From Parafrankia sp. EUN1f (GTDB taxonomy: Bacteria > Actinomycetota > Actinomycetes > Frankiales > Frankiaceae), in assembly GCF_000177675.1 (NCBI RefSeq), contig NZ_ADGX01000071.1, positions 1 through 43,964 on the forward strand: DNA of 43,964 nt, written 5' to 3'. A program made the position numbers and the translations under genes. The notes under the pieces are model-generated. The model made no database searches and was not told where the DNA came from. It saw nothing but the letters and a program-made list of their open reading frames with translations. Shown piece after piece: positions 9,854-26,687 of the stretch; position 1 is the first letter of the stretch, and every line of letters starts with the position of its first letter.

Positions 9854-10737
9854 CCCGCGAGGTGCTTGTCGTCACCCATCCGCGCCGTTCCGTGGTGCGG
9901 GAGAGCGCCCAGCAGGTGCTGGAGATGCTCGCGGCGGCCGGCGTCTCGCCGCGGGTGCTGCGGGACGAGGCGGAGCTGCTGGACCTCTCGGCGCCGAACG
10001 TCGTGCCGGCGGACATCGACGCCGCCGTCGGAACGGAGCTGGTGCTCGTCCTCGGTGGCGACGGCAGCCTGCTGCGGGGCGCCGAGTTCGCCCGCTCGGC
10101 CGACATCCCGCTGCTCGGCGTCAACCTCGGCCATGTCGGCTTCCTGGCCGAGGCGGAGCCGGACGCACTGCGCGCCACCGTCGAACACGTGGTCCGCAAG
10201 GAGTACACGGTCGAGGAACGGATGACCGTCGAGGTGACGGTCCGTCACCAGGGTGAGGTTCTCTACACCGGCTGGGCGCTCAACGAGATGTCGTTGGAGA
10301 AGGCCGAGCGGGCCCGGATGCTCGAATGCGTCGTGGAGATCGACGGCCGGCCGCTGTCGCGGTGGGGGTGCGACGGTGTGATCTGCTCGACGCCGACCGG
10401 CTCGACCGCGTACGCGTTCTCCGCGGGTGGTCCGGTGCTGTGGCCGGGCGTCGAGGCGCTGCTGGTGGTGCCGATCAGCGCGCACGCGCTGTTCGCGCGG
10501 CCGCTGGTGCTCGCACCGGGCGCGGTGGTGGCCATCGAGGTGCTGCCGGACGTCCCGGCCGTGCTCTACTGCGACGGGCGCCGGATGTTCGATCTGCCGC
10601 GGCTGTCGCGGGTCGAGGTGGTGCGTGGGCGGCGGCCGGTGCGTCTCGCGGTGATCAGACCACAGCCGTTCACCGATCGCCTGGTGGCGAAGTTCGACCT
10701 TCCCGTCGCCGGCTGGCGGGGGCGATCGGAGCGCTGA
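9850..10737 (+). CDS. nadK: NAD kinase
   Basis: 295 residues, the usual length. It phosphorylates NAD+ to NADP+ in the cytoplasm. The GGDG nucleotide motif is at residues 69-72, followed by GVNLGHVGFL and the conserved CDGVICSTPTGSTAYAFSAG block. ATG 9850 overlaps the tlyA stop (ATGA), so the two are translationally coupled. The gene order small protein, tlyA, nadK, recN is typical of actinobacteria. Confidence 0.96.
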   Translation: MTREVLVVTHPRRSVVRESAQQVLEMLAAAGVSPRVLRDEAELLDLSAPNVVPADIDAAVGTELVLVLGGDGSLLRGAEFARSADIPLLGVNLGHVGFLAEAEPDALRATVEHVVRKEYTVEERMTVEVTVRHQGEVLYTGWALNEMSLEKAERARMLECVVEIDGRPLSRWGCDGVICSTPTGSTAYAFSAGGPVLWPGVEALLVVPISAHALFARPLVLAPGAVVAIEVLPDVPAVLYCDGRRMFDLPRLSRVEVVRGRRPVRLAVIRPQPFTDRLVAKFDLPVAGWRGRSER

Positions 10738-10852
10738 CCAGCGCGCCGACCAGTACGCGCGTCGGCATCACCCCGCGCCGGGACGTGCCGGGAATCGGCG
10801 GCACGCCGCCCTTTCCACGATTTCCGGGTGCCGGCCGGGGCGGATGTGACGC

Positions 10853-10858
10853 TAGAGT
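10853..10858 (+). promoter_or_regulatory. Candidate -10 (TAGAGT) for a leaderless recN mRNA
   Basis: TAGAGT ends seven bases before GTG 10866, placing the expected transcription start at the start codon. No Shine-Dalgarno sequence is visible. I looked for a GAAC-N4-GTTC LexA box between 10738 and 10865 and did not find one. Confidence 0.5.
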
Positions 10859-10865
10859 TCGGGGC

Positions 10866-12617
10866 GTGCTCGAGGAGATTCGCATTCGCGGCCTCGGTGT
10901 CATTGATGACGCTGTCCTCGACCTGGCGCCGGGGCTGACGGTGGTCACCGGTGAGACCGGCGCCGGCAAGACCATGATCGTCCAGGGTCTGGGCCTGCTG
11001 ACCGGAGGCCGGGCCGACTACGCCCTCGTCTCCGCGGCGGCCGGCCGGGCGTCCGTGGAGGCCCGGCTCGTCGTGGCCGCCGACTCCCCGCTGGTCAAGC
11101 GGGTGCACGAGCTCGACGGCGAGCTCGACGACGACGTGATCCTGATGGGGCGCACGCTTACCGCCGAGAGCCGGTCGCGGGCCCAGCTGGCCGGTCGCTC
11201 GGTGCCCGCCAGTGTCCTCGCCGAGATCACCGAGAACGTCATCGCGGTGCACGGCCAGTCCGAGGCACAGCGCCTGCGGCGCCCCGCGATGCAGCGCGAC
11301 GCGCTTGATCGTTTCGCCGGGTCCGCGGTCGCCGAGCCGCTGGCGCACTACGCCCGGGTCTACGCCCGGCTGGCGAAGGCCCGGGCGCGGCTCGCCGAGA
11401 TCACCGGGCGGGCCCGGGAGCGGGCGCAGGAGGCGGAGCTGCTGCGGCTCGGCCTCGCCGAGGTCGAACGGGTCGCCCCGCTGTCCGGGGAGGACGTCGC
11501 GCTGACCGCGGAGCTGAGCCGGCTGGAGCACGCCGAGACCCTGTCCCAGGTGGCGCGGTCGGCGCACGGGGCGCTCGTCAGCGATCCGGAGTCCGGCGAC
11601 GACACCCCGGGCGCGGTCGACCTGGCCGGCGCCGCCCGCCGGATCGTCGCGGGTGACGCGTCGCTCGACCCGGAGCTCGCCGAGCTCGCGAACCGGCTGG
11701 CCGAGGTGGTGGCCCTGCTCGCCGACGTCGCCGCCGACCTGGCCTCCTACGGGGCCGGGGTGGAGTCCGATCCGGCGCGGCTCGCGTCCGCCCAGGCCCG
11801 CCGGGCCGAACTCACGACCCTGGCCCGCGCGCACGGGACGGACGTCGACGGCGTGCTCGCCTGGGCCGAGACGGCGGGGCGCCGGCTGCTGGAGCTCGAC
11901 GCCGACGGCGACCAGTCCGGCGCGCTCACCGCCGAGTGCGCGGAGCTCACCGCGGAGCTCGCCGGGCTCGCCGAGCGGATCAGCGCCGCGCGCAGCGCCG
12001 CCGCGGAGCGCTTCGGCGCGGCGGTGGCGGCGGAGCTGGCGGGCCTGGCGATGCCCAGGGCGAAGGTGCTGGCGGTGGTCGGCCAGCGGGACGACCCGGC
12101 CGGGCTGTCGGTGGGGGGCCGTACGGTCGCCTACGGGCCGAGCGGGGTCGACGATGTGGAGCTGCGGCTGGTGCCGCACCCGGGCGCGCCCGCCCGCCCG
12201 GTGGAGAAGGGCGCGTCGGGCGGTGAGCTGTCCCGGGTGATGCTGGCGATCGAGGTGGTCCTCGCCGCGGCCGACGCCGGCGCGACGATGGTCTTCGACG
12301 AGGTCGACGCCGGTGTGGGTGGCCGCGCCGCGGTCGAGATCGGCCGCCGCCTCGCCCGGCTCGCGCGCACGCACCAGGTCATCTGCATCACCCATCTGCC
12401 GCAGGTGGCGGCCTTCGCCGACCAGCACCTGGTCGTGCACAAGGCCAGCGACGGCTCGGTGACCCGCAGCGGCGTGGTGGCGCTGGACGGCCCGGCGCGG
12501 GTCCGGGAGCTGTCCCGGATGCTGGCCGGCCAGGAGGAGAGCACGCTGGCCCGTGGGCACGCCGAGGAGCTCCTCGCCGCCGCCGCCGCGGACAAGGCCG
12601 AGCTGGCCCGTTCCTGA
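10866..12617 (+). CDS. recN: DNA repair protein RecN
   Basis: 583 residues. RecN is an SMC-like ATPase acting in double-strand break repair. Walker A GETGAGKT is at residues 29-36; the ABC-type signature KGASGGELSRVMLAIE and Walker B MVFDEVDAGVGG are near the C-terminus, followed by VICITHLPQVAAFAD. The middle is Ala/Leu/Glu-rich and fits a coiled coil. GTG 10866 begins the typical N-terminus LEEIRIRGLGVIDDA. It is separated from nadK by 128 bases and has its own candidate promoter. The last 17 bases are duplicated just past the stop. Confidence 0.95.
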   Translation: MLEEIRIRGLGVIDDAVLDLAPGLTVVTGETGAGKTMIVQGLGLLTGGRADYALVSAAAGRASVEARLVVAADSPLVKRVHELDGELDDDVILMGRTLTAESRSRAQLAGRSVPASVLAEITENVIAVHGQSEAQRLRRPAMQRDALDRFAGSAVAEPLAHYARVYARLAKARARLAEITGRARERAQEAELLRLGLAEVERVAPLSGEDVALTAELSRLEHAETLSQVARSAHGALVSDPESGDDTPGAVDLAGAARRIVAGDASLDPELAELANRLAEVVALLADVAADLASYGAGVESDPARLASAQARRAELTTLARAHGTDVDGVLAWAETAGRRLLELDADGDQSGALTAECAELTAELAGLAERISAARSAAAERFGAAVAAELAGLAMPRAKVLAVVGQRDDPAGLSVGGRTVAYGPSGVDDVELRLVPHPGAPARPVEKGASGGELSRVMLAIEVVLAAADAGATMVFDEVDAGVGGRAAVEIGRRLARLARTHQVICITHLPQVAAFADQHLVVHKASDGSVTRSGVVALDGPARVRELSRMLAGQEESTLARGHAEELLAAAAADKAELARS

Positions 12618-12645
12618 GCCCGGCCGAACTGGCCCGTTCCTGAGC
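12603..12645 (+). repeat. Duplicated 3' end of recN
   Basis: CTGGCCCGTTCCTGAGC occurs at 12603-12619, including the recN stop codon, and again at 12629-12645, a period of 26 bases. It looks like a small tandem duplication. Confidence 0.8.
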
Positions 12646-12783
12646 GCGCACGCTCCGCCGCACATCCCCGCTCAGCGGCCGTTCCCGGCGGGGCGGCCTG
12701 CGGCCCTGCTCAGGGCGGTGTTACCGTGAAGACCCGTGGAGGCGCCGGGGCCGGTACCGGCGGCGTGACCACGGGAGTTCCGC

Positions 12784-14639
<1,856 letters not shown>

Positions 14640-14643
<4 letters not shown>

Positions 14644-15281
14644 GCGACACCGTGCACAGCAGCGACACCGTGCACCGCTACGAGGTGGCGGACAGCTCCG
14701 TCGTCTACCGCGGCCGGGTCATCTCCCTGCGCCGCGACATGGTGCGCATGCCCGACGGCGACACCTCGCAGCGCGACGTCGTCGTGCACCCCGGCGCGGT
14801 CGGCGTCGTCGCCCTCGACGAGCAGGAACGGGTCGTGATGGTGCGCCAGTACCGCCACCCGGTCGGCGGGCCGCTGTGGGAGCTGCCCGCCGGCATCCTG
14901 GACGTCCCCGGCGAGCCGGCGTCGGTCGCGGCCGCCCGGGAGCTCGCGGAGGAGGCCGGCCTGCGTGCCGGCCGCCTCGACCTGCTGATCGACGTCTACG
15001 CCTCACCCGGGATGACCGACGAGGCGTTCCGCGTGTTCCTGGCCCGCGACCTGACGGAGATCCCCGCCGCCGAGCGGCATGTCGGCGTCCACGAGGAGGC
15101 CGAGATGGGCATCACCCGCGTCGACCTGTCGGCGGCGGTGGACCAGGTGATGCGCGGCGAGATCACCAACGGCATGGCGGTGATGGGCCTGCTCGCCACC
15201 TACCGCGCCCGCGTCGACGGCTACCGCAACCTGCGCCCGCTAGACGCCCGCTGGGAGGCCAGGCCCGCGGCCAGCGGCTGA
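14640..15281 (+). CDS. Nudix hydrolase, ADP-ribose pyrophosphatase type
   Basis: 213 residues. The Nudix box reads G-ILDVPG-E-x7-RELAEEAGL (in the segment starting [10 protein letters not shown]), with one extra residue between G and E as in ADP-ribose pyrophosphatases. Flanking motifs ([39 protein letters not shown]) match that subfamily. It probably hydrolyses ADP-ribose or a similar nucleotide sugar. ATG 14640 overlaps the pyrG stop (ATGA), a common actinobacterial pair. Confidence 0.9.
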
Positions 15282-15379
15282 CCCCCGCGTCGCTTCGACG
15301 AACTCCGCCGCCGTTAGCGACACCAGGAACGCCGGCCACCTCGACGAGCGGACCGCTACCGGATCCGGACAACTGAGGG

Positions 15380-16611
15380 CTATGGGCGGCGGGTCCAGGG
15401 GAGCAGACGGCGGTGAGAATGGTTCAGCGCCTGCGGGGCACTGCGCGGGGCGTGTTCCAGCCCAGGGATGGGATCACCCTGCCCGAGCCGTCGAATCGAA
15501 GCGACGCCGTCGAGATCGTCGATCTCGAAGCGGCGTAGCTTCACTGCCCACCACACCACGGAGCCGGTATCGACGGAGGTCTTATGCCCCCCGTCAGGAA
15601 GGACTGTCGCCCAACCGCTCCGCGTCGACACGAGAGTCGCCAGAAGTGCGCCTGTGGCGGGCGACCACAGCCGCACCGCGCTGCTGCCGCTGTCGCTGGT
15701 GGCGAGGATGCCTCGGCCAGGCTGAACAGGCGGATCCGGCGCCGCCGTGCCTGCCGGCGGGCTTCCTCCCCGACTGGCTCCCCGAGATGGACCAGCTCGG
15801 AACCGACCCACTCGTCAACCGGAACGTAGACCGGCTTCACCACCGCCTCGTAGAAGGCCTCGACCGCGGCCACGTCGGGGGAGTCGATGCTGGCCCCGAC
15901 CGGCCATCGCTGCCTTTCGCCGTCGCGTTCCCCGGCCACGTCCAGATAACGGAACAATCCGCCCGGCCCGTCCCGGCGGATAGTCGCCTCGGGGTGGCGT
16001 TGCCGGCATGCATCCTCGGCCAGTCCCAGCAGCCGAGAGGTCAAGGCCAGCCGGTCCGGGCCCGGGAACGGCGGTACCTGCCGATCCCAGGCCTCGCCGT
16101 TGCACCCCGGAAAGGCCGGTGCGACCGTGGGAAGCATCGGCTCACCCCCGACAGCCGCATGCATCCCCTCGATCAGGACTCGGAGGGCGTCGGCCTCACC
16201 ATGATCGACCAAGCTGATCCGGGCGATCTCACGTAGCAATGGCGGTGACTCACACGGCGCCACCCGTACGGGAACCAGTAGCCGGCGCCCGGAGACCGAC
16301 GCTGCTAGCGCCGCGTTCAACTCCGCCCTGGGCCACTCGGAGCTCAGGTAGGCGGGGGAGAGGATCACCATTACGCACGGTGCCGTCGTCAGCTCCTGAA
16401 CGGTCCATCCGACGAGGTTGCGCCCGGGGACTGCATGCCAGGCCTGCAGTCGGGGTCGGTATCCGGCCTGTCGCAGCTGCCAAGCGACCCAAACCGCCCA
16501 TGGTTCGTCGGCCGCCGTATAGCTGATGAAGACCATGCGGTGATCCGCCTGCACGCCTGTAGCGCCGTTCTGGCCCGCCATGACCCCCGTCATAGGTGCC
16601 AAGCCTGCCAC
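15380..16611 (-). pseudogene. TIR-domain gene with frameshift into a WD40-like tail (NLR-like remnant)
   Basis: The first frame (start 16611, or ATG 16581 or 16536) has a TIR domain at residues ~26-160: MVFISYTAADEPWAVWVAWQ, VILSPAYLSSEWPRAEL (candidate catalytic Glu in RAEL) and RRLLVPVRVAPCESPPLL. TIR domains of this kind are often NADases in antiphage defence. Next comes a segment with VDEWVGSELVHLGEPV and ARRRRIRLFSLAE, resembling a region that precedes NACHT ATPases in actinobacterial proteins (from memory). Near 15715 the reading shifts by one base. The other frame then gives a WD40 blade and tail (GILATSDSGSSAVRLWSPAT, VVWWAVKLRRFEIDDLDG) to a stop at 15380. No NACHT or multi-blade propeller is present. 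I read this as an internally deleted, inactive TIR/WD40 gene. The first frame also runs on to 15541, probably as nonsense. Confidence 0.65.
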
Positions 16612-16668
16612 GTACCGTCACAGAGCGGACGGCCGCTCCGGTGATCCCGACATCCGTCGGGGGGTCGG

Positions 16669-17565
16669 TCAGTCGTTGCCGACGAGGACGCCGCCGGCTT
16701 CCTCGATCGTGATCGGGGTGGCGGCGGTGAGGGCGACGGCGTCGAGCGGGAAGGCCTGGGCGACGCCTGGGACGGTGAAATAGCCGTCCCAGGTCACGGT
16801 GAGGGTCACCTGGTACGTCCCGGGCCGGTGGTACTGGTGGGTGACGTAGGCGTCCGGGTGGTCGCGGGGGGAGATCGCCGGGTCGTAGGGGCGGCCCGGG
16901 GCGTCCGGGCCGGTCTCGCCGTCGCCGAACTGCCAGGAGTAGCGCGGGACCGCGCTGATCGTCGCCAGAACGGGTTGGGTGACGTCGAAGGTGAACGCGG
17001 CGGGCACGCCGGTGTACATGATCGTCGGCAGGTTCGCGAAGCTGTTCCCGATCGGCTGGACGACGACCTTCGGGGTGGGCAGCAGCTCCTCACGCAGGTA
17101 GTCGGCGAACTGGGCGGCGAGGTCGTTGACGGCGATGCCGTTGGGGTCGTAGAGGACCGGCCCGCAGTCGGCGACCAGGGCGTCGTACTCGGCCCGCTCC
17201 GCCGCGGTCATCTCCGGGGCCGCACCGACACCGGTCAGTGCCGCGCACACAGCGTCCGGGTCGGGTGGGCAGTCGTCGCCGCAGCCACCACCGGCGCCGG
17301 TGCCGTCGTCGAGCGGGACCTTGGTGAGGTAGCCGCCGCGGTAGTGGTACTGGAAGCCGTTGTCCGTGGCGCGGGTGTCGCAGCTGCCCCAGACGGCTCC
17401 CGTGCAGGCGGCCTGCGGGGGTGGTGCGGCGAGGGCCGGCCGGGTGGCGCCGGGCAGCGGCCCGCCGCCGGGCGCCAGTATCGCGGTGATGACCGCCACA
17501 CCCACCAGCATGGTGCGGGTGGCCGCGCGGGCCGAAGCCGGCGGCCGGGCGCGGCTGTCGCTCAT
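16669..17565 (-). CDS. Secreted PKD-domain protein
   Basis: 298 residues. The N-terminus has a basic stretch, a hydrophobic core (MLVGVAVITAILAPGG) and an Ala-rich likely signal peptidase site near residue 45-50. The first half contains several Cys, including CGDDC, suggesting disulphides. A PKD fold is seen near residues 205-265: SWQFGDGETGP, then THQYHRPGTYQVTLTVTW. PKD domains are extracellular beta sandwiches that mediate binding. ATG 17565 overlaps the stop of the lipoprotein gene by four bases (ATGA), so the two are co-translated and probably act together at the cell surface. The function is unknown. Confidence 0.8.
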   Translation of the reverse strand: MSDSRARPPASARAATRTMLVGVAVITAILAPGGGPLPGATRPALAAPPPQAACTGAVWGSCDTRATDNGFQYHYRGGYLTKVPLDDGTGAGGGCGDDCPPDPDAVCAALTGVGAAPEMTAAERAEYDALVADCGPVLYDPNGIAVNDLAAQFADYLREELLPTPKVVVQPIGNSFANLPTIMYTGVPAAFTFDVTQPVLATISAVPRYSWQFGDGETGPDAPGRPYDPAISPRDHPDAYVTHQYHRPGTYQVTLTVTWDGYFTVPGVAQAFPLDAVALTAATPITIEEAGGVLVGND

Positions 17566-18317
17566 GACCGCTGCCCCGCCGCGTAGGTGATGTTCTGGAT
17601 GCGCCAGCCCGGGCCGGTCAGGACGAGCTGTGCGACGGCGGAGCGGGTCGGAACCGCGGGCACCTGGCCGGCGTCGCGCCCGGCCGGGTCGAGGAGCCCG
17701 ACCGCCCGGGTGGTCGCGGCGAACCGGACGTCGACGACGGTGCCGCGGCGTGCTCCCGCGGCCAGGCCGGTGATCTCGTAGGGTGCCTGGGCGGCCCGGG
17801 CGCCGGTCTGGTCGAGGTAGCGGGTCATGCCGACGTCGAGCGCGCAGGTCTGGCAGCCGGGCAGCGCGGTCGCGGAGATGTCGGCGACCCGGCCGGCCTG
17901 CGCGGCCGCGTTGATCTCGCCGTAGTAGGCGGAGACGATCCGGCCGGCGCCGGCGGGGGAGTCGTCCCTGGCCGCGGGCCCACCGGCGCTGGCTCCGCCC
18001 GTGCCGCCGGGGGTGGACTCTCCGGGGTCGGCCGCGCCCGTGGCGGCCGTGGCGTCGGGCCCGGCGGTGGTGGTGCTTGCCGGGGTCTCGGCTCCGGCGC
18101 CGGCCGCTGCCCCCGAGCTGGTGGCGGAGCCGGGGCGGGCCGGGGGCGGTGCGCCGGCCGACCGGCCCTGCGCGTCGCCGCACCCGGCGAGCGACACGCC
18201 CGCGCAGAGGGTGAGGACGACCGAGACAGCGGCGACCGGGACTGTGCCGGCCGAGACAGTGGCGATGACAAGCCTCCGACATGCAGCGAAACGTGACGAT
18301 TCAGCGTCAGTCCGCAC
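17562..18317 (-). CDS. Putative lipoprotein
   Basis: 251 residues. The signal sequence ends in a lipobox, VSLAGC, with the acylated Cys near residue 46. A Pro/Ala/Gly/Thr-rich linker of about 75 residues follows, then a folded domain with [17 protein letters not shown], a CQTC motif, and a C-terminal beta-rich part (RWRIQ-like [11 protein letters not shown]) resembling small accessory domains of other actinobacterial lipoproteins. GTG 18317 is the only good start; TATCGT eight bases upstream suggests a leaderless mRNA. It is divergent from xerD and coupled to the PKD protein. The function is unknown. Confidence 0.78.
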
Positions 18318-18325
18318 AGGGTGTC

Positions 18326-18331
18326 ACGATA
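18326..18331 (-). promoter_or_regulatory. Candidate -10 (TATCGT) for the lipoprotein-PKD operon
   Basis: On the minus strand TATCGT ends eight bases before GTG 18317. No Shine-Dalgarno sequence is visible, which fits a leaderless start. It is back to back with the xerD candidate promoter. Confidence 0.4.
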
Positions 18332-18386
18332 GACGTTCGGTGGCGCCGTCGGGAACGGGCATCAACGAACCGACGTCCGCGCGCCC

Positions 18387-18392
18387 TAATAT
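18387..18392 (+). promoter_or_regulatory. Candidate -10 (TAATAT) for a leaderless xerD mRNA
   Basis: TAATAT is one base from the TATAAT-type consensus and ends seven bases before ATG 18400. It is AT-only in a very GC-rich region. There is no Shine-Dalgarno sequence before the ATG. Confidence 0.55.
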
Positions 18393-18399
18393 CAGTTCG

Positions 18400-19797
18400 A
18401 TGATGACCACGGCGGAAGGCGGCGACGCCCGCCGCGGTGGGCCCGCACACGACCACGCCCCGACCGCGGCCGTTGATCCGGTCGGTGATCCGGCCGATGC
18501 CGCGAGCGGTGGCCTGGTGGGCGATGGGGCGGATGAGGGGGCCGACGCGGGCCAGGTCATCGCCCGCTACCTCGATCATGTGGACGGTGAGCGCGGGCTG
18601 GCGCGCAACTCGGTGCTCGCCTACCGACGGGATCTGCGTCGCTACCACGAGCACCTGTCGGGGCGTGGAATCAGGTCGCTCGGCGCGGTCGGCGAGGCGC
18701 AGATCGCGCAGTTCGCCATCACGTTGCGCACCGGCGACGAGTCGCATCCGCCGCTCGCGCCGGCGTCGGTCGCCCGGATGCTGGTCGCAGTGCGGTCGCT
18801 GCATCGCTACGCGGCCCGCGAGGGAGATGTGAGCGCGGACGTGTCCGGGCCGGTCCGGCCGGCGGCGCCGCCGCGGCGTCCACCCCGGGCCCTGACGGTC
18901 GACCAGGTGACGGCGCTCATCCTGCAGGCCGGGGCGGCCGCGGGGGCGGACCAGTCCGGCCCGGCCCGCCGGCTGCGCTCCGCGGCTCTGCTCGAGCTGC
19001 TGTACGGGACCGGTGCGCGGATCTCGGAAGCGGTCGGGCTCGACCTCGACGATCTCGATCTGGACGGGTCCGCGGTCCGGCTGCGCGGCAAGGGCGGGCG
19101 GGGCCGGGTGGTGCCCCTGGGGCGCTACGCGGTGATCGCGCTGGAGCGGTATCTGCGGGCCGGCCGGCCGCTGCTGGTGGCCGGCCCCGGCAGTGCTGGA
19201 GCTGGCAGTGCTGGAGCTGCCAGCGCTGGAGCAGGCCGTGCTGAAGCTGGCGGGGCGGGTGCGGAGGGCGCCGGAGCCGGCGTCGCAGGCGGTGCCGGGG
19301 CCTTGGGTGAAGCCGATGCCGTGGGTGGTGCCGATCCGGCGGTGGGGGTGGGCCCGGCGGTGTTCGTCTCGCGGCGGGGTACCCGGCTGTCCCGCCAGAG
19401 CGCCTGGTCGGCGTTGCGGGCGGCGGCGGATGCGGCCGGCGTGACCGGGGCGTCACCGCATGTGCTGCGGCACTCGTTCGCGGCCCATCTGCTCGATCGC
19501 GGCGCGGATGTACGGGTCGTCCAGGAGCTGCTGGGTCACGCGTCGGTCAGCACGACCCAGATCTACACCCTGAAGAACACAGACCTGACGACCATGGACC
19601 ATCTTCGCGAGGTGTACACGTCGTCGCATCCGCGGGCGGTGCCGTGCCCATGCTCAGGCACGACCGCAACAGCGACAGCGCCGGCGGTGACGAGACCGTC
19701 CGTGCCGGCGCCGGTCGGAGAGCGGCCGATCGGCGATGGTGATCCGATCGGCGCAGGTGATCGTGATGGTGTCCGGTCGCCCGAGGCGGGGACGTAA
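18400..19797 (+). CDS. xerD: Tyrosine recombinase XerD-type
   Basis: 465 residues; XerD is usually about 300. It resolves chromosome dimers at dif by strand exchange. A core-binding domain ([20 protein letters not shown]) is followed by the catalytic domain with Arg in GARISEA (~residue 207), Lys in [26 protein letters not shown] and Tyr ~389 in TTQIYT. All catalytic residues are present. Three additions explain the length: an acidic N-terminal extension (~50 residues), an Ala/Gly-rich insert (~residues 261-318) inside the catalytic domain between the Lys and HxxR motifs, and a C-terminal tail (~60 residues). ATG 18400 or 18403 starts the protein. XerC is an alternative name, but the position near pyrG and the Nudix gene favours XerD. 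Confidence 0.88.
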
Positions 19798-19808
19798 CCG
19801 CCCGCCTC
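19783..19808. terminator. Hairpin over the xerD stop codon
   Basis: GAGGCGGG (19783-19790) pairs perfectly with CCCGCCTC (19801-19808); the 10-base loop contains the TAA stop of xerD. It lies between convergent genes with a gap of only 34 bases, so a bidirectional terminator is plausible. Confidence 0.5.
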
Positions 19809-19831
19809 AGGACGGTGACCGGGAGGCCGGC

Positions 19832-20050
19832 TCAGGACGGGGTGTACGGCCCGAGGCTCGGCATGCCGTTGGAGGGCGCGGGCGAGGGAACCCCGCCGAC
19901 ACCGCCGACCGACTGGTTGCTGCGCTCGGCCAGGGTCTCGCCCACCTTGCGCGCGATCGCTTCCATCAGGCGCAGTGCCTGCGGCAGCGACAGGTTCAGC
20001 ACCACTTCGCTGTCGTTCGTCATCGCGAAGCGAACCGATACGTCCGCCAT
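19832..20050 (-). CDS. Small hypothetical protein
   Basis: 72 residues from ATG 20050, with GAGAGG seven bases upstream. Residues 1-48 look folded: a short beta hairpin (VSVRFAMTNDSEVVLNLS) and one helix (PQALRLMEAIARKVGETLAER). The end is a Gly/Pro/Ser-rich tail. There is no signal peptide or membrane segment. I do not recognise the family. It converges with xerD. Confidence 0.65.
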   Translation of the reverse strand: MADVSVRFAMTNDSEVVLNLSLPQALRLMEAIARKVGETLAERSNQSVGGVGGVPSPAPSNGMPSLGPYTPS

Positions 20051-20596
20051 TGCTCGACCTCTCTCGCCTGACTCGGAAGGTCTACCTACCGAAGATCTGT
20101 CTGGTGCGTATGACTGGGGTACGTGTGACTGGGAACGGTACGGCCCATCTCGGACGAACGCACGCTCGGGGTTCCCTGAAGCAGGCCACCCCTCACGGTG
20201 TGTCAGATCGTTGGCGCTCCATGTCGCGGTCAGAGTTCTGTGCGGATCCGCCACTGGTCCTGCTCCTTCGCCGGTCGCGACGCTTTTCCTGAGGTCCGCG
20301 CTGCTGTTCGTCGGGCCTGGGGTGCAGGCCGGCCCGGGAGTCGCGGTCGCGATCGTAGCTGCCCCGTTGTTCCCTCATAGTCCACTATCGGGTGAGTGTC
20401 CGCGCCGGCGGGGTGGGGAAAAATGTCCTGCCGTCTCCCGTTGTGGCATCTGTGCTGACCGTGGGCCTTCGTCGGATCTGACGCCCAGTCCACGTGAGCG
20501 CCCCGGGGCCTGGCGGATGACCCGGGCAACTGGGAGCGGAGTCACAGGCAGCGACGCGCACCGGCACCTGCGGGCCGATTCGGGCAGGATGGGTCT
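20051..20596. other. Intergenic gap without a supported gene
   Basis: This gap of about 546 bases lies between the 72-residue protein gene (-) and npdG (+). The region 20090-20400 is less GC-rich than its neighbours. No frame shows convincing codon use, RBS and family similarity together. Promoters for both flanking genes must lie here; CAGGAT at 20585-20590 is a weak -10 candidate for npdG. Confidence 0.4.
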
Positions 20597-21280
20597 GTGA
20601 CCTCAGCCGCGCCCTCTCTTCCTGACGTCTCCTCCCTCGCGATCGGCATCCTGGGCGGTTCCGGGCCCCAGGGTGGCGGGCTCGCGGTCCGTTTCGCGCT
20701 GGCCGGGCACCGGGTGCTCGTCGGATCGCGCTCGGCGGAGCGCGGTCGGGACGCCGCCGCCAAGCTCTCCGGGGCCGGGCGGCTCGTCGAGGGTGGGGAC
20801 AACGCCGACGTCGCCGAGCAGGCGGACGTGGTCATCATCGCGGTGCCCTGGGAGGGCCACGGCGAGCTGCTCGCCGACCTGCGCAAGCAGCTGGCGGGCA
20901 AGATCGTCATCGACTGTGTCAACCCGATGGGCTTCGACAAGGGTGGCGCGTTCGCGCTGCCGGTCGAGGAGGGCAGCGCCGCGCAGCAGGCCGCGGCCGT
21001 GCTGCCGGACAGCACCGTCGTCGGTGCCTTCCACCACGTCTCCGCGGTCCTGCTCATGGACGTGTCGGTCGCGTCCATCGACACCGACATCCTGGTGGTC
21101 GGCGACGACCGCCCGGCGACCGACACGGTGATCGCGCTCGCGAACCGGATCCCCGGGATGCGGGGCATCTACGCCGGCAAGCTGCGCAACGCCGGTCAGG
21201 TCGAGGCGCTCACCGCGAACCTCATCTCCGTCAACCGCCGCTACAAGGCGCACGCCGGCCTGCGGGTCACCGACGTCTGA
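20597..21280 (+). CDS. npdG: F420-dependent NADP reductase
   Basis: 227 residues. It transfers hydride between reduced coenzyme F420 and NADP. The N-terminal Rossmann fold has the family motif GILGGSGPQGGGLAVRFALA and the NADP-selective loop VGSRSAERG. Further conserved segments are VIIAVPWEGH, KIVIDCVNPMGF and VGAFHHVSA. The family is well known in archaea and actinobacteria. The length matches. The start is GTG 20597, with weak AGGA upstream. An F420-reducing gene implies that this organism makes F420, as many actinobacteria do. Confidence 0.92.
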   Translation: MTSAAPSLPDVSSLAIGILGGSGPQGGGLAVRFALAGHRVLVGSRSAERGRDAAAKLSGAGRLVEGGDNADVAEQADVVIIAVPWEGHGELLADLRKQLAGKIVIDCVNPMGFDKGGAFALPVEEGSAAQQAAAVLPDSTVVGAFHHVSAVLLMDVSVASIDTDILVVGDDRPATDTVIALANRIPGMRGIYAGKLRNAGQVEALTANLISVNRRYKAHAGLRVTDV

Positions 21281-21364
21281 GGCTTCTGAGGACGTCTGAG
21301 ACGACCGACGACCGCGGAGACGTCCGAAGCGCCTCCCGGCGCGGGCTCGGGTGAGACTGGCCGT

Positions 21365-22195
21365 ATGACATTCCCGCCGGCGGCACCGTTCCCGGGCTCG
21401 TCCCGCGGGCCCGCCCGTGACGACCTGGGCGCCCGTGACGACTCGGGCGCCCGTGACGACCTGGGTGATCTGGTGCCCGTGCCGGCGGTGGTCCGGCGGG
21501 TGGTGTCCCTGGTGCCGAGCCTGACGGAGTCCGTCGCGGCGAGCGCGCCGGAGCTGCTGGTGGGCGCCACCGACTGGTGCTCCCACCCGCCCGGTCTGGC
21601 GGTGCGCCGGGTGCGTGGGACGAAGAACCCGGATCTGGCCGCCATCGGGGCGCTGGCGCCCGACCTGGTCTGTGCCAACGCGGAGGAGAACCGCGCGGAG
21701 GATCTGGCCGCGTTGCGGGCGGCGGGTCTCGCGGTCTGGGTCACCGCGCCGACCACCGTCCCCGCGGCGCTGCGCAGCCTCGACCGGATGCTGCGGCTGG
21801 GCTGCGGCCTGGCGCGCCCGGACTGGCTGGATGCCGCGGAGCAGGTGTGGGCGGAACCGTTCCGTGGCCCGCGCCGCCGCGCGATCATCCCGATCTGGCG
21901 GCGGCCCTGGATGGCTGTCGGGCGGGACACCTTCACCGGCGACGTGCTGGCCCGGCTCGGAGTGGACAACGCGCTGGCCGGATCCGAGCAGCGCTACCCG
22001 CGGGTGGACATCGCCGCGCTGCCACCGCACGACCTGGTGGTGCTGCCGGATGAGCCGTACGCGTTCAGCCCGTCCGATGGCCCGGAGTCGTTCGAGGCCC
22101 GGGCGGTCTGCGTGTCCGGCCGGCTGCTGACGTGGTACGGCCCGTCCCTGGTGCAGGCACGGGCCGACCTCGCGAACGCGCTGGGGTTCCAGTAG
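21365..22195 (+). CDS. Helical-backbone metal/cobalamin receptor-like protein, apparently cytoplasmic
   Basis: 276 residues. After a low-complexity N-terminus (three 18-bp repeats, 21413-21466) comes a periplasmic-binding-protein fold of the TroA/BtuF type: RRVVSLVPSLTESVAA, VGATDWCSHP, GTKNPDLAAIGALAPDLVCAN, GRDTFTGDVLARLGV. These domains bind iron chelates or cobalamin for ABC importers. No signal peptide or lipobox is visible and no permease or ATPase genes are next to it, so the usual transport role is doubtful. The start is ATG 21365, without a clear RBS. Transcribed with npdG or alone; the gap is 84 bases. Confidence 0.78.
   Translation: MTFPPAAPFPGSSRGPARDDLGARDDSGARDDLGDLVPVPAVVRRVVSLVPSLTESVAASAPELLVGATDWCSHPPGLAVRRVRGTKNPDLAAIGALAPDLVCANAEENRAEDLAALRAAGLAVWVTAPTTVPAALRSLDRMLRLGCGLARPDWLDAAEQVWAEPFRGPRRRAIIPIWRRPWMAVGRDTFTGDVLARLGVDNALAGSEQRYPRVDIAALPPHDLVVLPDEPYAFSPSDGPESFEARAVCVSGRLLTWYGPSLVQARADLANALGFQ
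21413..21466 (+). repeat. Three 18-bp tandem repeats
   Basis: Units of GCCCGTGACGACCTGGGC at 21413, 21431 and 21449, differing at two or three positions, encode (A/P)RDD(L/S)G hexapeptides before the folded domain of the receptor-like protein. Confidence 0.85.
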
Positions 22196-22250
22196 TCGCT
22201 GGTCAGACCGCTGGCCGGCGGCTCATGGCCGGCGGCTCGATGGCCGGCGG

Positions 22251-23276
22251 TCAGTAGCTGTGCTCCACCGTCGGGTACACCCCGCGGGAGACCTCGTCGC
22301 TGTACGCCGCCGCCGCGTCGGCCAGTGCCGTCCGCAGCTCGGCGAAGCGCTTGACGAAGCGCGGTGAGTGGCCGCCGCTCAACCCGGCCATGTCCTGCCA
22401 GACGAGCACCTGCGCGTCGCAGTCCGCGCCCGCGCCGATGCCCACGGTGGAGATCGTCAGCTCCTTGGTCACCCGGGCGGCCAGATCGGCGGGCACGACC
22501 TCCAGCACGACCGCGAACGCGCCGGCCTCCTGCAGGCCCAGCGCGTCGGCGAGCAGCACGTCACCGGCGCGGTCACGCCCCTGGACGCGGTAGCCGCCCA
22601 GCGTGTGGACACTCTGCGGGGTGAGGCCCAGGTGGCCGACCACCGGGACGCCGGCGGCGACGAGCGCCTCGACCTGTGGCAGCACCCGCGCGCCGCCCTC
22701 GAGCTTGACCGCCTGCGCGCCGCCCTCCTTGAGGAACCTGGCGGCTGTCTCCAGCGCCTGCTGCGGGCTCGACTGGTAGGAGCCGAAAGGCAGGTCGGCG
22801 ACGACCATCGCGTTCGACGCGCCGCGCACCACCGCCCGCACCAGCGGGATCATCTCGTCGACCGTGATCGGAACGGTGGTCTCGTAGCCGTAGACCGTGT
22901 TCGCGGCGGAGTCGCCGACGAGCAGGACCGGGATACCGACCTCGTCGAAGATTCCGGCCGAGAGGACGTCGTAGGAGGTGAGCATGGCCCACTTCTCGCC
23001 CCGCTCCTTGGCGGCGCGGATGTCGCGCACCGTCGTCCGGCCGCTGCGGCCCAGGCGGATCGAACGGGTCGAGCGGATCGTGCTCCGCGCGCCGGGCGCG
23101 CCGGGCGCGCCGGTGGTGCCGGATGCATCGGTCGCGGGGGGTGCGGTGGCGGTCGCGGCGGTGGTCGGCGCGCCGTAGAGCGTCGCCGCCTCGTCGCTGC
23201 CGTCGGCGGCGCCGGCTGGGGTGGAGCTGGGGCCGCCCGCAGCGGAGGGGGTGGAATTGCCGATCGACGAGTCCAT
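22251..23276 (-). CDS. panB: 3-methyl-2-oxobutanoate hydroxymethyltransferase
   Basis: 341 residues. PanB makes ketopantoate from 2-oxoisovalerate and methylenetetrahydrofolate, the first committed step of pantothenate synthesis. Typical motifs are [69 protein letters not shown]-like [19 protein letters not shown]. The first ~75 residues are a Ser/Thr/Ala-rich extension not found in the basic family. The start is ATG 23276, with GGGAG five bases upstream. Confidence 0.95.
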
Positions 23277-23767
23277 ACAAACTCCCGGTGAGCCGTCCGG
23301 GCGCGGGATCGCGTCCCGGCGTGGCTCCATGCTGCCACCGAAAGGGCCGTCGCCGACAGGTCTGGCGCGGGCCTGCCTGTACCGGGCCATCATTCGTGCC
23401 GGTGATGTCGCCAGCTGTGCCGGAACGGCTGCGGGCGGTGTTCTGACGGATGCACGTCGTGGAGGAATCGGTCGGGTGTGGTGTGGCCGGCCGGCGCGGG
23501 TGCGTTACTCAGGCGTGTTGTTCGCGCAATCAGATGCATGTGGCGTCGAACGCACGTACTCTCCGATCTTGACAAATCCTCGGGGCCGGGAAACACCGGC
23601 ACGATGAGCCCGGTGTCGACCGGGCCAGGCATTCGCGGCCGTGCTCCACGGCCGCGTGACGTGAATGGTGCGAAGAAGGCGCGGGTGGCGGCGGGCATGC
23701 GGATGGATCGGCCGGGCGACCGGCGCAGGCGCGACGCCTTCCACAGGCGACCCGGCAAGGCGGTCTG
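23277..23767. other. Divergent gap between panB and tetR-type gene
   Basis: This 491-base region must hold promoters for panB (-) and the TetR gene (+). TTGACA at 23569-23574 matches a -35 hexamer, but no good -10 follows at the right distance. A small frame from ATG 23604 to TGA 23768 (54 codons, very Arg-rich) overlaps the TetR start as TGATG; I do not regard it as proven. Confidence 0.4.
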
Positions 23768-24412
23768 ATGTCGGTGGCTCATGCCAACGGGACGGACCCG
23801 CGTGAACACTCGTCCCGGCCACCGTCAGGTGTGGCCCGCCCACCGGGGCGGCCCCGGGACACCCGGCGTGACCCGCTGATCATCGAGGCGACCCTGACGG
23901 AGCTCGCCGCCAACGGCTTCGGGGGCCTGTCCATGGAGGCGGTCGCGGCCGCGGCGGGCGTGGGCAAGGCCACCGTGTACCGGCGGTGGCCGACGAAGGG
24001 CGCCCTGGTCGCCGAGGCGCTCGCGACCCTGGCCACCTCGCACGAGCCGCATGACACCGGATCCCTGCGCGACGACCTGGTCGCGACGGTGAACGCGGTG
24101 CGCCGGCACAGCATCCAGACGCTGTCGGGGCGGATCATGCCCCGCGTGCTGGCGGAGAAGGAGTCCCACCCCGACCTGTTCGACACCTACCGCCAGCAGG
24201 TGATCGTCCCGGCCCGGGAACAGGTCGCGAACGTGCTGCGCCGCGGGGTGGCCAGCGGTGAGCTCAAGGCCGACCTCGACGTCGACCTGGCGACGGACAT
24301 GCTCGTCGGCCCGGTCTCCTACCGGCAGTACACCGCCGGCAGCAACGAGGTGAGCGGGACGCGGATAAGCCAGATCGTCGACACCGTTCTGGGTGGCATC
24401 CGCGCCGACTGA
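23768..24412 (+). CDS. TetR family transcriptional regulator
   Basis: 214 residues. The N-terminal helix-turn-helix spans ~residues 37-83 (IIEATLTELAANGFGGLSME, then AAAAGVGKATVYRRWPTKGA), as in TetR/AcrR regulators. The C-terminal part has the LRDDLVATVNAVRR and DLATDMLVGPVSYR pattern of a ligand-binding domain subgroup that is common in actinobacteria. The ligand is unknown. ATG 23768 has AAGGCGG five bases upstream. It may control itself or the divergent panB side, but no operator is obvious. Confidence 0.9.
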   Translation: MSVAHANGTDPREHSSRPPSGVARPPGRPRDTRRDPLIIEATLTELAANGFGGLSMEAVAAAAGVGKATVYRRWPTKGALVAEALATLATSHEPHDTGSLRDDLVATVNAVRRHSIQTLSGRIMPRVLAEKESHPDLFDTYRQQVIVPAREQVANVLRRGVASGELKADLDVDLATDMLVGPVSYRQYTAGSNEVSGTRISQIVDTVLGGIRAD

Positions 24413-24513
24413 GGCTCCCCGCGGCTGGCCTGGCCGACGCTGACCGAAGCGCCCCGCGGCTGGGCTGGTCGACGCCGCCGGAAAATCGCGTGGGTGCGCT
24501 CTGTGTGCACGGG

Positions 24514-24710
24514 TAGCATCGCGATCGGGGAGGCACCCCGCCGCGCGTGCGTGGCCCCGCCCGGCTCCGGCCGGCGTCGGGTGCCGGGCATCAGGTGCCG
24601 GCGTGGGCGGCCGTCCCGACAAATGAACAGCCTCCAGAGTTCATCACCAGCCATGGTCAGGGCGTGCGTGGGTGCGCCCGGCCATCCGTCCACTGCCGCA
24701 GGAGAATCCG
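24514..24710 (+). promoter_or_regulatory. Candidate thrS promoter and long leader
   Basis: TAGCAT (24514-24519) resembles a -10 hexamer and is about 190 bases before the thrS start, implying a structured GC-rich leader. I looked for T-box features (AGGGTGGNACCGCG-like antiterminator) and did not find them. A short hairpin, GAAC pairing with GTTC, lies near 24623-24641. Function unproven. Confidence 0.35.
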
Positions 24711-26687
24711 GTGTCCGACGTCCGCGTTACCGTTCAGCGAGGTCAGCAGGCCGAGGAGCGGGTGGTGCGGGCGGGTACGACGGCCGCCGAGCTCTTCGAC
24801 GGCGAGCGGTCGGTGATCGCCGCCCGGGTCGGTGGCCGCCAGCGTGACCTGGCCCATCCACTGGCCGCGGGGGACGTCGTCGAGCCGATCACCGTCGACT
24901 CGCCGGACGGTCGGGCGATCGTGCGCCACTCGTGCGCGCACGTGGTCGCCCAGGCCGTGCAGGACCTGTTCCCCAAGGCGAAGCTCGGGATCGGCCCGCC
25001 GATCCAGGACGGCTTCTACTACGACTTCGACGTCGAGCGCCCCTTCACCCCGGAGGACCTCAAGGCCGTCGAGAAGCGCGCCCAGGAAATCATCAAGTCG
25101 GGCCAGCGGTTCTCCCGCCGGGTCGTCACCGACGACGAGGCCCGCGCCGAGCTCGCCGACGAGCCGTACAAGATCGAGCTGATCGGGCTGAAGTCGAGCG
25201 CGGGTGACGACGCCGAGGCCTCGGTCGAGGTGGGCGCGGGCGAGCTCACCATCTACGACAACCTCGACCCGAAGTCGGGCGAGCTGTGCTGGAAGGACCT
25301 GTGCCGCGGGCCGCACGTGCCCACCACCCGGCACATCCCCGCGTTCGCGGTGCAGCGCTCCGCGGCGGCCTACTGGCGGGGCAGCGAGCGCAACCCGCAG
25401 CTGCAGCGCATCTACGGCACCGCCTGGGAGTCGCGGGAGGCGCTGAAGGAGTACCAGCACCGCCTCGCCGAAGCGGAGAAGCGCGACCACCGGCGCCTCG
25501 GCGCCGAGCTGGACCTGTTCTCGTTCCCGACCGAGATCGGCCCGGGGCTGGCCGTGTTCCACCCCAAGGGCGGCGCGATCCGCACCGTCATGGAGGACTA
25601 CTCGCGCCGCCGGCACATCGAGGCCGGGTACGAGTTCGTGAACACCCCGCACATCACCAAGTCCGACCTGTACGAGATCTCCGGGCACCTGGACTGGTTC
25701 GCCGACGGCATGTACCCGCCCATGCAGCTCGACGGCGGGGCGGACTACTACCTCAAGCCGATGAACTGCCCGATGCACATCCTGATCTTCCGGTCGCGCG
25801 GCCGGTCGTACCGGGAGCTGCCGCTGCGGCTGTTCGAGTTCGGCACCGTCTACCGGTACGAGAAGTCCGGCGTCGTGCACGGCCTGACCCGGGTGCGCGG
25901 GCTCACCCAGGACGACGCGCACCTGTTCTGCGCCCGTGAGCAGCTCCCGGAGGAGCTCGACTCCGTCCTGAAGTTCGTCCTCGGGCTGCTGCGCGACTAC
26001 GGCCTGGAGGACTTCTACCTGGAGCTGTCGACCCGTCCCGAGGGCAAGGCGATCGGCTCGGACGAGGAATGGGCGGAGGCCACCGAGCTGCTGCGCGAGG
26101 CCGCCTCCAAGCAGGATCTCGAACTGGTGATGGACGAGGGCGGCGGCGCCTTCTACGGTCCGAAGATCTCGGTGCAGGCCAAGGACGCGATCGGGCGGAC
26201 CTGGCAGCTGTCCACCATCCAGGTGGACTTCCAGCTCCCGCAGCGCTTCGACATGACCTACCAGGCCGCCGACGGCACCCGCCAGCGCCCGTTCATGATC
26301 CATCGGGCGCTGTTCGGGACGATCGAGCGATTCTTCGCGATCCTGCTGGAGCACTACGCCGGCGCGCTGCCGCCGTGGCTGGCCCCGGTGCAGGTCGTCG
26401 GCATCCCGATCACCGACGAGCACGTGCCCTACCTGGCCGACGTCGCGGCGAAACTGCGGGAACGCGGCATCCGGGTGGAGGTCGACTCCTCCGACGACCG
26501 GATGCAGAAGAAGATCCGCACCGCGCAGAAGCAGAAGGTCCCCTTCATGCTGCTGGCAGGCGACGAGGACGTCTCGAAGGGCGCGGTGTCCTTCCGCTTC
26601 CGCGACGGGACGCAGCGTAACGGTGTGCCGGTGGACGAGGCCGTCGCCGAGATCCTCGACGTCGTGGAGCGCCGCGTCCAGGTCTGA
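24711..26687 (+). CDS. thrS: Threonyl-tRNA synthetase
   Basis: 658 residues. Domains in order: TGS (~1-60), the editing/SAD region ([16 protein letters not shown], later the RGPHVP segment), the class II catalytic core with zinc-binding Cys in LKPMNCPMH, motif 2 [26 protein letters not shown], motif 3 in [16 protein letters not shown], and the anticodon-binding domain. It charges tRNA-Thr. GTG 24711 is chosen: AGGAG is about seven bases upstream and the N-terminus fits. The length matches actinobacterial ThrS. Confidence 0.97.

Follow-up and report, generated by a model that had tools for sequence, protein, structure and literature searches.

TIR effectors act on NAD+. The bNACHT antiphage proteins follow a tripartite plan consisting of an N-terminal effector, a central NACHT and a C-terminal sensor; clade 6 has nuclease effectors with NCH1 domains, and clade 14 has SNaCT domains without a discernible effector (PMC12169576). 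As far as the main text of that article goes, neither TIR nor WD40 occurs in it as a term.

The locus described here lies in a window of 43,964 nucleotides (the whole stretch of DNA that was analyzed) from Parafrankia sp. EUN1f, whose draft genome has 396 contigs and an estimated contamination of 4.86%. Window positions 15380-16611 on the minus strand, the interval singled out by an earlier sequence-only reading, very probably hold a former gene for an NLR-like STAND receptor, now a pseudogene that has lost its core by an internal deletion. Compared with the tripartite plan, the window copy has an N-terminal effector domain (TIR_2) and has lost NACHT, and is thus a remnant rather than a member.

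Results

Domains and frames of the window copy

In the ORF listing, a 356-aa ORF with a GTG start extended from 16611 to 15541 on the minus strand. Its first 300 codons (15712-16611, minus strand) form the 5′ remnant, which comprises the TIR and NA-iREase3 domains and ends at the linker that led to NACHT, as delimited by Pfam, identity to the sister copy and an alignment with 13 relatives. The TIR domain was found at residues 27-144 (16180-16533, minus strand; TIR_2, PF13676, E = 6.5e-29, 101.3 bits against a cut-off of 28). The glutamate after the S..W stretch was kept (SSEWPRAE in the window, RSEWPRAE in the sister), and we take the last E of SSEWPRAE to be the catalytic glutamate of a TIR NADase. 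The sequence-only reading was right about a TIR domain with a conserved glutamate; the region after it, which that reading left as of unclear family, belongs instead to a named family, NA-iREase3 (residues 193-300; 15712-16035, minus strand; PF22739, E = 4.9e-22, 79.2 bits against a cut-off of 27), with model positions 3-111 of 118 covered. Pfam describes PF22739 as "NACHT-associated inactive Restriction Endonuclease 2", so that a NACHT would be expected alongside; the Pfam scan found none in the window ORFs.

By frame analysis, residues 301-356 and the stop codon (15541-15711, minus strand) are the out-of-frame end of the 356-aa ORF and represent WD40 DNA read in the wrong frame. The 3′ remnant (15440-15710, minus strand) lies in another frame and consists of the last WD40-like blade and a conserved C-terminal tail (74% identity to the sister tail, E = 6.9e-38), in agreement with the single blade and tail proposed earlier. 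The tail also aligned with the tails of 10 relatives, this alignment leaving out L087, L090 and L092. The ORF in the tail frame extends from 15811 to 15380, and only its part from approximately 15710 downward is beyond the junction. Neither WD40 (PF00400) nor any other Pfam family matched the window tail by itself at E ≤ 1; its kinship to WD40 proteins therefore comes from homology to the long relatives and not from a profile match of its own. Sensor repeats in frame were not retained in the window copy, which has one blade and the tail in the other frame.

Structure prediction for the 356-aa product, from a two-row alignment, gave a mean pLDDT of 35.8, too low for the model to be of use, and a phmmer search of solved structures with the remnant gave no match at E ≤ 0.001. 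No Rfam match was found at the gathering threshold within 14900-17000, and neither promoter-like nor terminator-like sites were found within 15200-16800. The genome itself was rich in TIR genes: 19 further loci matched the TIR part of the remnant at E = 0.001 or better.

A long gene at the same site in a sister genome

A stretch (L027) of a genome of the same genus (G003) was colinear with window positions 10033-26659. Window residues 1-300 were 78% identical to the protein encoded there, with no stop, and the 5′ open frame of the sister gene had 1402 codons, including a run of N. The sister counterpart of the window tail sits 4.2 kb past the gene start. Inside the gene the blastn alignment was split: window position 15718 corresponded to L027 position 10851, and window position 15710 corresponded to L027 position 14207. 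Approximately 3.35 kb of sister sequence, 969 bases of it N, were missing from the window. The missing piece encodes NACHT (PF05729, 40.3 bits, cut-off 26.7), pentapeptide repeats and WD40 repeats, and the order in the sister gene is TIR, NA-iREase3, NACHT, pentapeptide, WD40. Stretches reading GAFGHGKT and LLFDGFDE were present in the sister protein; we take them to be of the Walker A and Walker B types, respectively.

The split placed the deletion junction and frame break at 15710-15718 on the minus strand. Relatives typically have SLAEFEGRWD (FSLAEFEGRWD in the copy of G025), and the window keeps FSLAE before going out of frame; the break is therefore most likely at 15711/15712, close to the shift that had been noted near 15715. 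The run of 969 N lies in the WD40 array of the sister; beyond it, as sequenced, the sister tail is out of frame with the 5′ part. Because this run may be either a scaffold gap of nominal length or withheld sequence, the sister gene is only possibly intact and the deletion length is approximate; the deletion in the window stands whether or not the sister gene is intact. The suggestion that full-length relatives carry NACHT and WD40 between the two ends was borne out, with pentapeptide repeats in addition, and a long homolog covering both ends, proposed earlier as the test of the deletion model, was found at the orthologous position within the genus. An internal deletion that fused the two ends and broke the frame is thus well supported by the colinear long gene.

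By eye, no long sequence common to both sister flanks was visible at the junction. Between 15250 and 16700 we observed five two-copy families of direct repeats (13-22 bases) and one inverted pair of 12 bases. None of these was taken to have caused the deletion; the only family touching the junction (15711-15732 with 16014-16035, 77%) has both copies in the retained part. The alignment with L027 had a second break, at window positions 19199/19336 inside the recombinase (xerD-like) ORF, where the window has an Ala/Gly-rich stretch of approximately 136 bases and the sister has approximately 17.

Neighboring genes and presence in the genus

The Pfam domains of the neighbors were CTP synthase, NUDIX, PKD, phage-integrase and SMC_N; the gene names used here (recN, pyrG and xerD) are presumed. 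The sequence-only reading had put the locus between pyrG/Nudix and xerD. These flanks were found; two overlapping ORFs, however, separate the remnant from the phage-integrase-family gene: a PKD-domain ORF ending at 16669 and a 251-aa ORF (17562-18317) with no Pfam match.

When orthologous loci were compared, as had been proposed, the long gene was found in G003 and an empty site in the other four genus members. In all four, the Nudix gene was directly followed by the PKD-domain gene, and no counterpart of window positions 15289-16653 was found (blastn; neighbors compared in frame). The gene was present in two of the six genus genomes compared, those of the window and of G003, at one site (E = 1e-40 or better). 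Either it was gained before these two lineages split or it was gained twice; the deletion then took place in the lineage of the window. As read from these assemblies, one locus shows three states: an empty site, a long gene and a deletion wreck.

Long relatives and survey of the class

Sister-protein matches at E = 1e-80 or better occurred in at least 24 of the 35 genomes of the order (one family among those listed). Nine of 13 relatives had single frames of 1535-1704 aa from stop to stop; among the other four, that of G016 began at a contig end and had 1084 aa, that of G023 was truncated at a contig end, and those of G014 and G025 were broken. The relative in Frankia torreyi CpI1 had an open frame of 1623 aa. 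Domains were scanned in the N-terminal 900 residues of nine of the 13, one of them in two pieces (L087, L090, L091 and L092 left out). TIR_2, NA-iREase3 and NACHT were found in this order in all nine; in G028, NACHT scored 24.7 bits, under the cut-off of 26.7. Pentapeptide repeats followed NACHT in eight of the nine (L079, L082-L086, L088 and L089), as in the sister, where WD40 repeats follow in turn, giving two repeat types in one receptor.

At least 42 NA-iREase3 matches were found in at least 24 of 296 class genomes; 37 of the 42 lay in open frames of at least 940 aa and five, including the window copy, in short frames of 143-647 aa. Counts for the order and the class are lower bounds, with 17 and 14 first-look candidates, respectively, scored per genome. 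The other short forms were G025:C46, which is broken, G025:C75, in which NACHT follows in a separate frame of 1106 codons, G007:C556 and G026:C353. Homologs with the same end point in a single frame, which the sequence-only reading had named as evidence against a deletion, were not seen among the 37 long-frame matches listed and the three short ones examined (the window copy and the two of G025).

Two further relatives showed breaks of their own. The relative at G025:C46:26500-32500 (L087), from another genus, went out of frame near residue 325 and matched nothing beyond residue 481, and its adjoining ORFs were transposase-like by eye. A third broken relative, at G014:C326:36500-44500 (L092), was split into two frames around the WD40 part, possibly by a sequencing error.

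The missing middle in the same genome

No close copy of the missing middle was found elsewhere in the genome of the window. The other matches in this part had 30% identity (residues 564-1017) and 40% identity (residues 914-1053), and PF22739 matched only once in this genome. Neither an intact spare copy nor a misplaced middle was therefore apparent. Elsewhere in the same genome, open frames of 1365 and 1313 aa showed matches to the stretch of the sister protein from NACHT to WD40 and to its WD40 part.

Divergence of the two remnants and their flanks

Between window and sister, dS was 0.426 in the TIR and NA-iREase3 part (300 codons) and 0.481 in the tail (85 codons), with dN/dS of 0.29 and 0.23, respectively. 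Similarly raised dS with low dN/dS in both remnants fits the two ends of one gene. The tail differences fell 16, 12 and 29 times on first, second and third codon positions over 92 codons (binomial P = 0.005). With such a third-position bias in a tail that is now out of frame, both ends were probably still being translated during most of the divergence of the alleles, relative to which the deletion looks recent. When 66 amino-acid differences were polarized against 13 relatives, 13 fell on the window branch and 19 on the sister branch, and 34 were undecided; no excess of changes, and hence no extra decay of the TIR and NA-iREase3 frame, was seen on the window branch.

For six neighboring genes (recN, pyrG, Nudix, the PKD gene, the 251-aa ORF and xerD), dS ranged from 0.078 to 0.179, so that the dS of the receptor allele was approximately 2-times to 6-times theirs. 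The distance between the receptor alleles was similar to that of the window Nudix and PKD genes from those of four other genus members (dS 0.29-0.55). Identity to L027 in steps of 250 bases was 71-89% across 15251-16750 and mostly 91-99% outside; other steps of low identity began at 12501 (88%), 18001 (88%) and 24251 (79%). The high divergence of the alleles suggests replacement by recombination, or separate gains; faster evolution of the receptor gene is an alternative.

Discussion

The long protein would work in three steps. A trigger would be sensed by the WD40 and tail region, NACHT would then oligomerize with ATP, and the TIR domains clustered in this way would act on NAD+, so that the infected cell is stopped or a signal is made. 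The antiphage part of this scheme is suggested by what is known of the family. In the lineage of the window, a deletion of approximately 3.35 kb (sister coordinates, 969 of these bases N) most likely removed NACHT and the pentapeptide repeats and spared very little of the WD40 array. The accompanying shift of frame leaves at most a 356-aa TIR and NA-iREase3 piece, having neither the oligomerizing engine nor the sensor. Although the effector and its glutamate are kept, no regulated response would be expected of such a piece, and receptor function has presumably been lost; a leftover TIR product from the remnant is possible.

Three other explanations of the broken gene were weighed against this deletion. 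The strain could carry a full gene whose two ends were misjoined in assembly owing to the WD40 repeats; the draft state of the genome would allow this, and the N run in the same array of the sister may point to difficulty in assembling it. However, the left side of the junction is in NA-iREase3 or the linker and not in the repeat array, the flanks share no long sequence by eye, no other contig carries the missing part at high identity, frames with NACHT-to-WD40 and WD40 similarity did assemble in the same genome, and there is no N in 15000-17200. We consider a misassembly improbable. The reverse order of events, in which the sister joined a short TIR protein to a neighboring WD40 fragment with new sequence between them, has nothing in its favor beyond the broken frame itself; it is scarcely credible, given that the long architecture is already present in nine scanned relatives and that the two ends correspond to a single gene at a single locus and have similar dS.

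The TIR and NA-iREase3 piece could also have been kept as a functional short protein, either a free effector or a dominant-negative partner of other TIR proteins, for which the 19 other TIR matches in the genome are possible partners. Its 300 open codons, their dN/dS against the sister, a TIR domain above its cut-off and the lack of excess change on the window branch are all compatible with this. The tail, however, has an equally low dN/dS although it is now out of frame, so that the low values can be attributed to the time before the deletion. In addition, no recurring short form was seen (only five of the 42 NA-iREase3 matches listed were in frames shorter than 940 aa), and 56 out-of-frame residues are appended to the window piece. 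A retained short protein thus seems very unlikely, and an internal deletion in a receptor gene remains our preferred explanation.

More tentatively, and at somewhat less than an even chance, Frankiaceae may keep receptors of TIR, NA-iREase3, NACHT, pentapeptide and WD40 parts in a birth-and-death turnover like that of plant and fungal NLRs, of which the window would hold a recently killed allele. The steps of this turnover would be gain into a fixed intergenic site, allele replacement between species (the alleles being older than the flanks) and loss by deletion or breakage. The window copy neatly illustrates the death of such a gene and is not a new kind of system. It calls for caution where TIR or NA-iREase genes are counted in surveys as defense systems without a check for the ATPase core, and the long Frankiaceae proteins with TIR, NA-iREase3, NACHT and WD40 merit testing.

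Comparison with known systems

Among the literature matches listed, judged by titles and the starts of abstracts, none described the Frankia receptor or its remnant. In PADLOC-DB 2.0.0, the TIR part had weak matches, the best to the Aga_TIR and PDC-S66 models; no model covered the long protein (the sister and one relative were scanned, the relative giving no matches). The window domain belongs with NA-iREase3 (PF22739) by its score, and in nine scanned relatives this domain stands just before NACHT, whereas in the window no NACHT follows it. Like the bNACHT proteins as described in the main text cited above, the long relatives have an N-terminal effector domain (TIR), NACHT and C-terminal repeats; unlike them, they carry TIR together with an inactive-REase domain, followed by repeats of the pentapeptide and WD40 types. 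Receptors of plants (TIR-NB-LRR) and fungi (NACHT-WD40) would be comparable in working rather than by membership: they share with the long relatives an effector, a STAND ATPase, a repeat sensor and the turnover of their genes.
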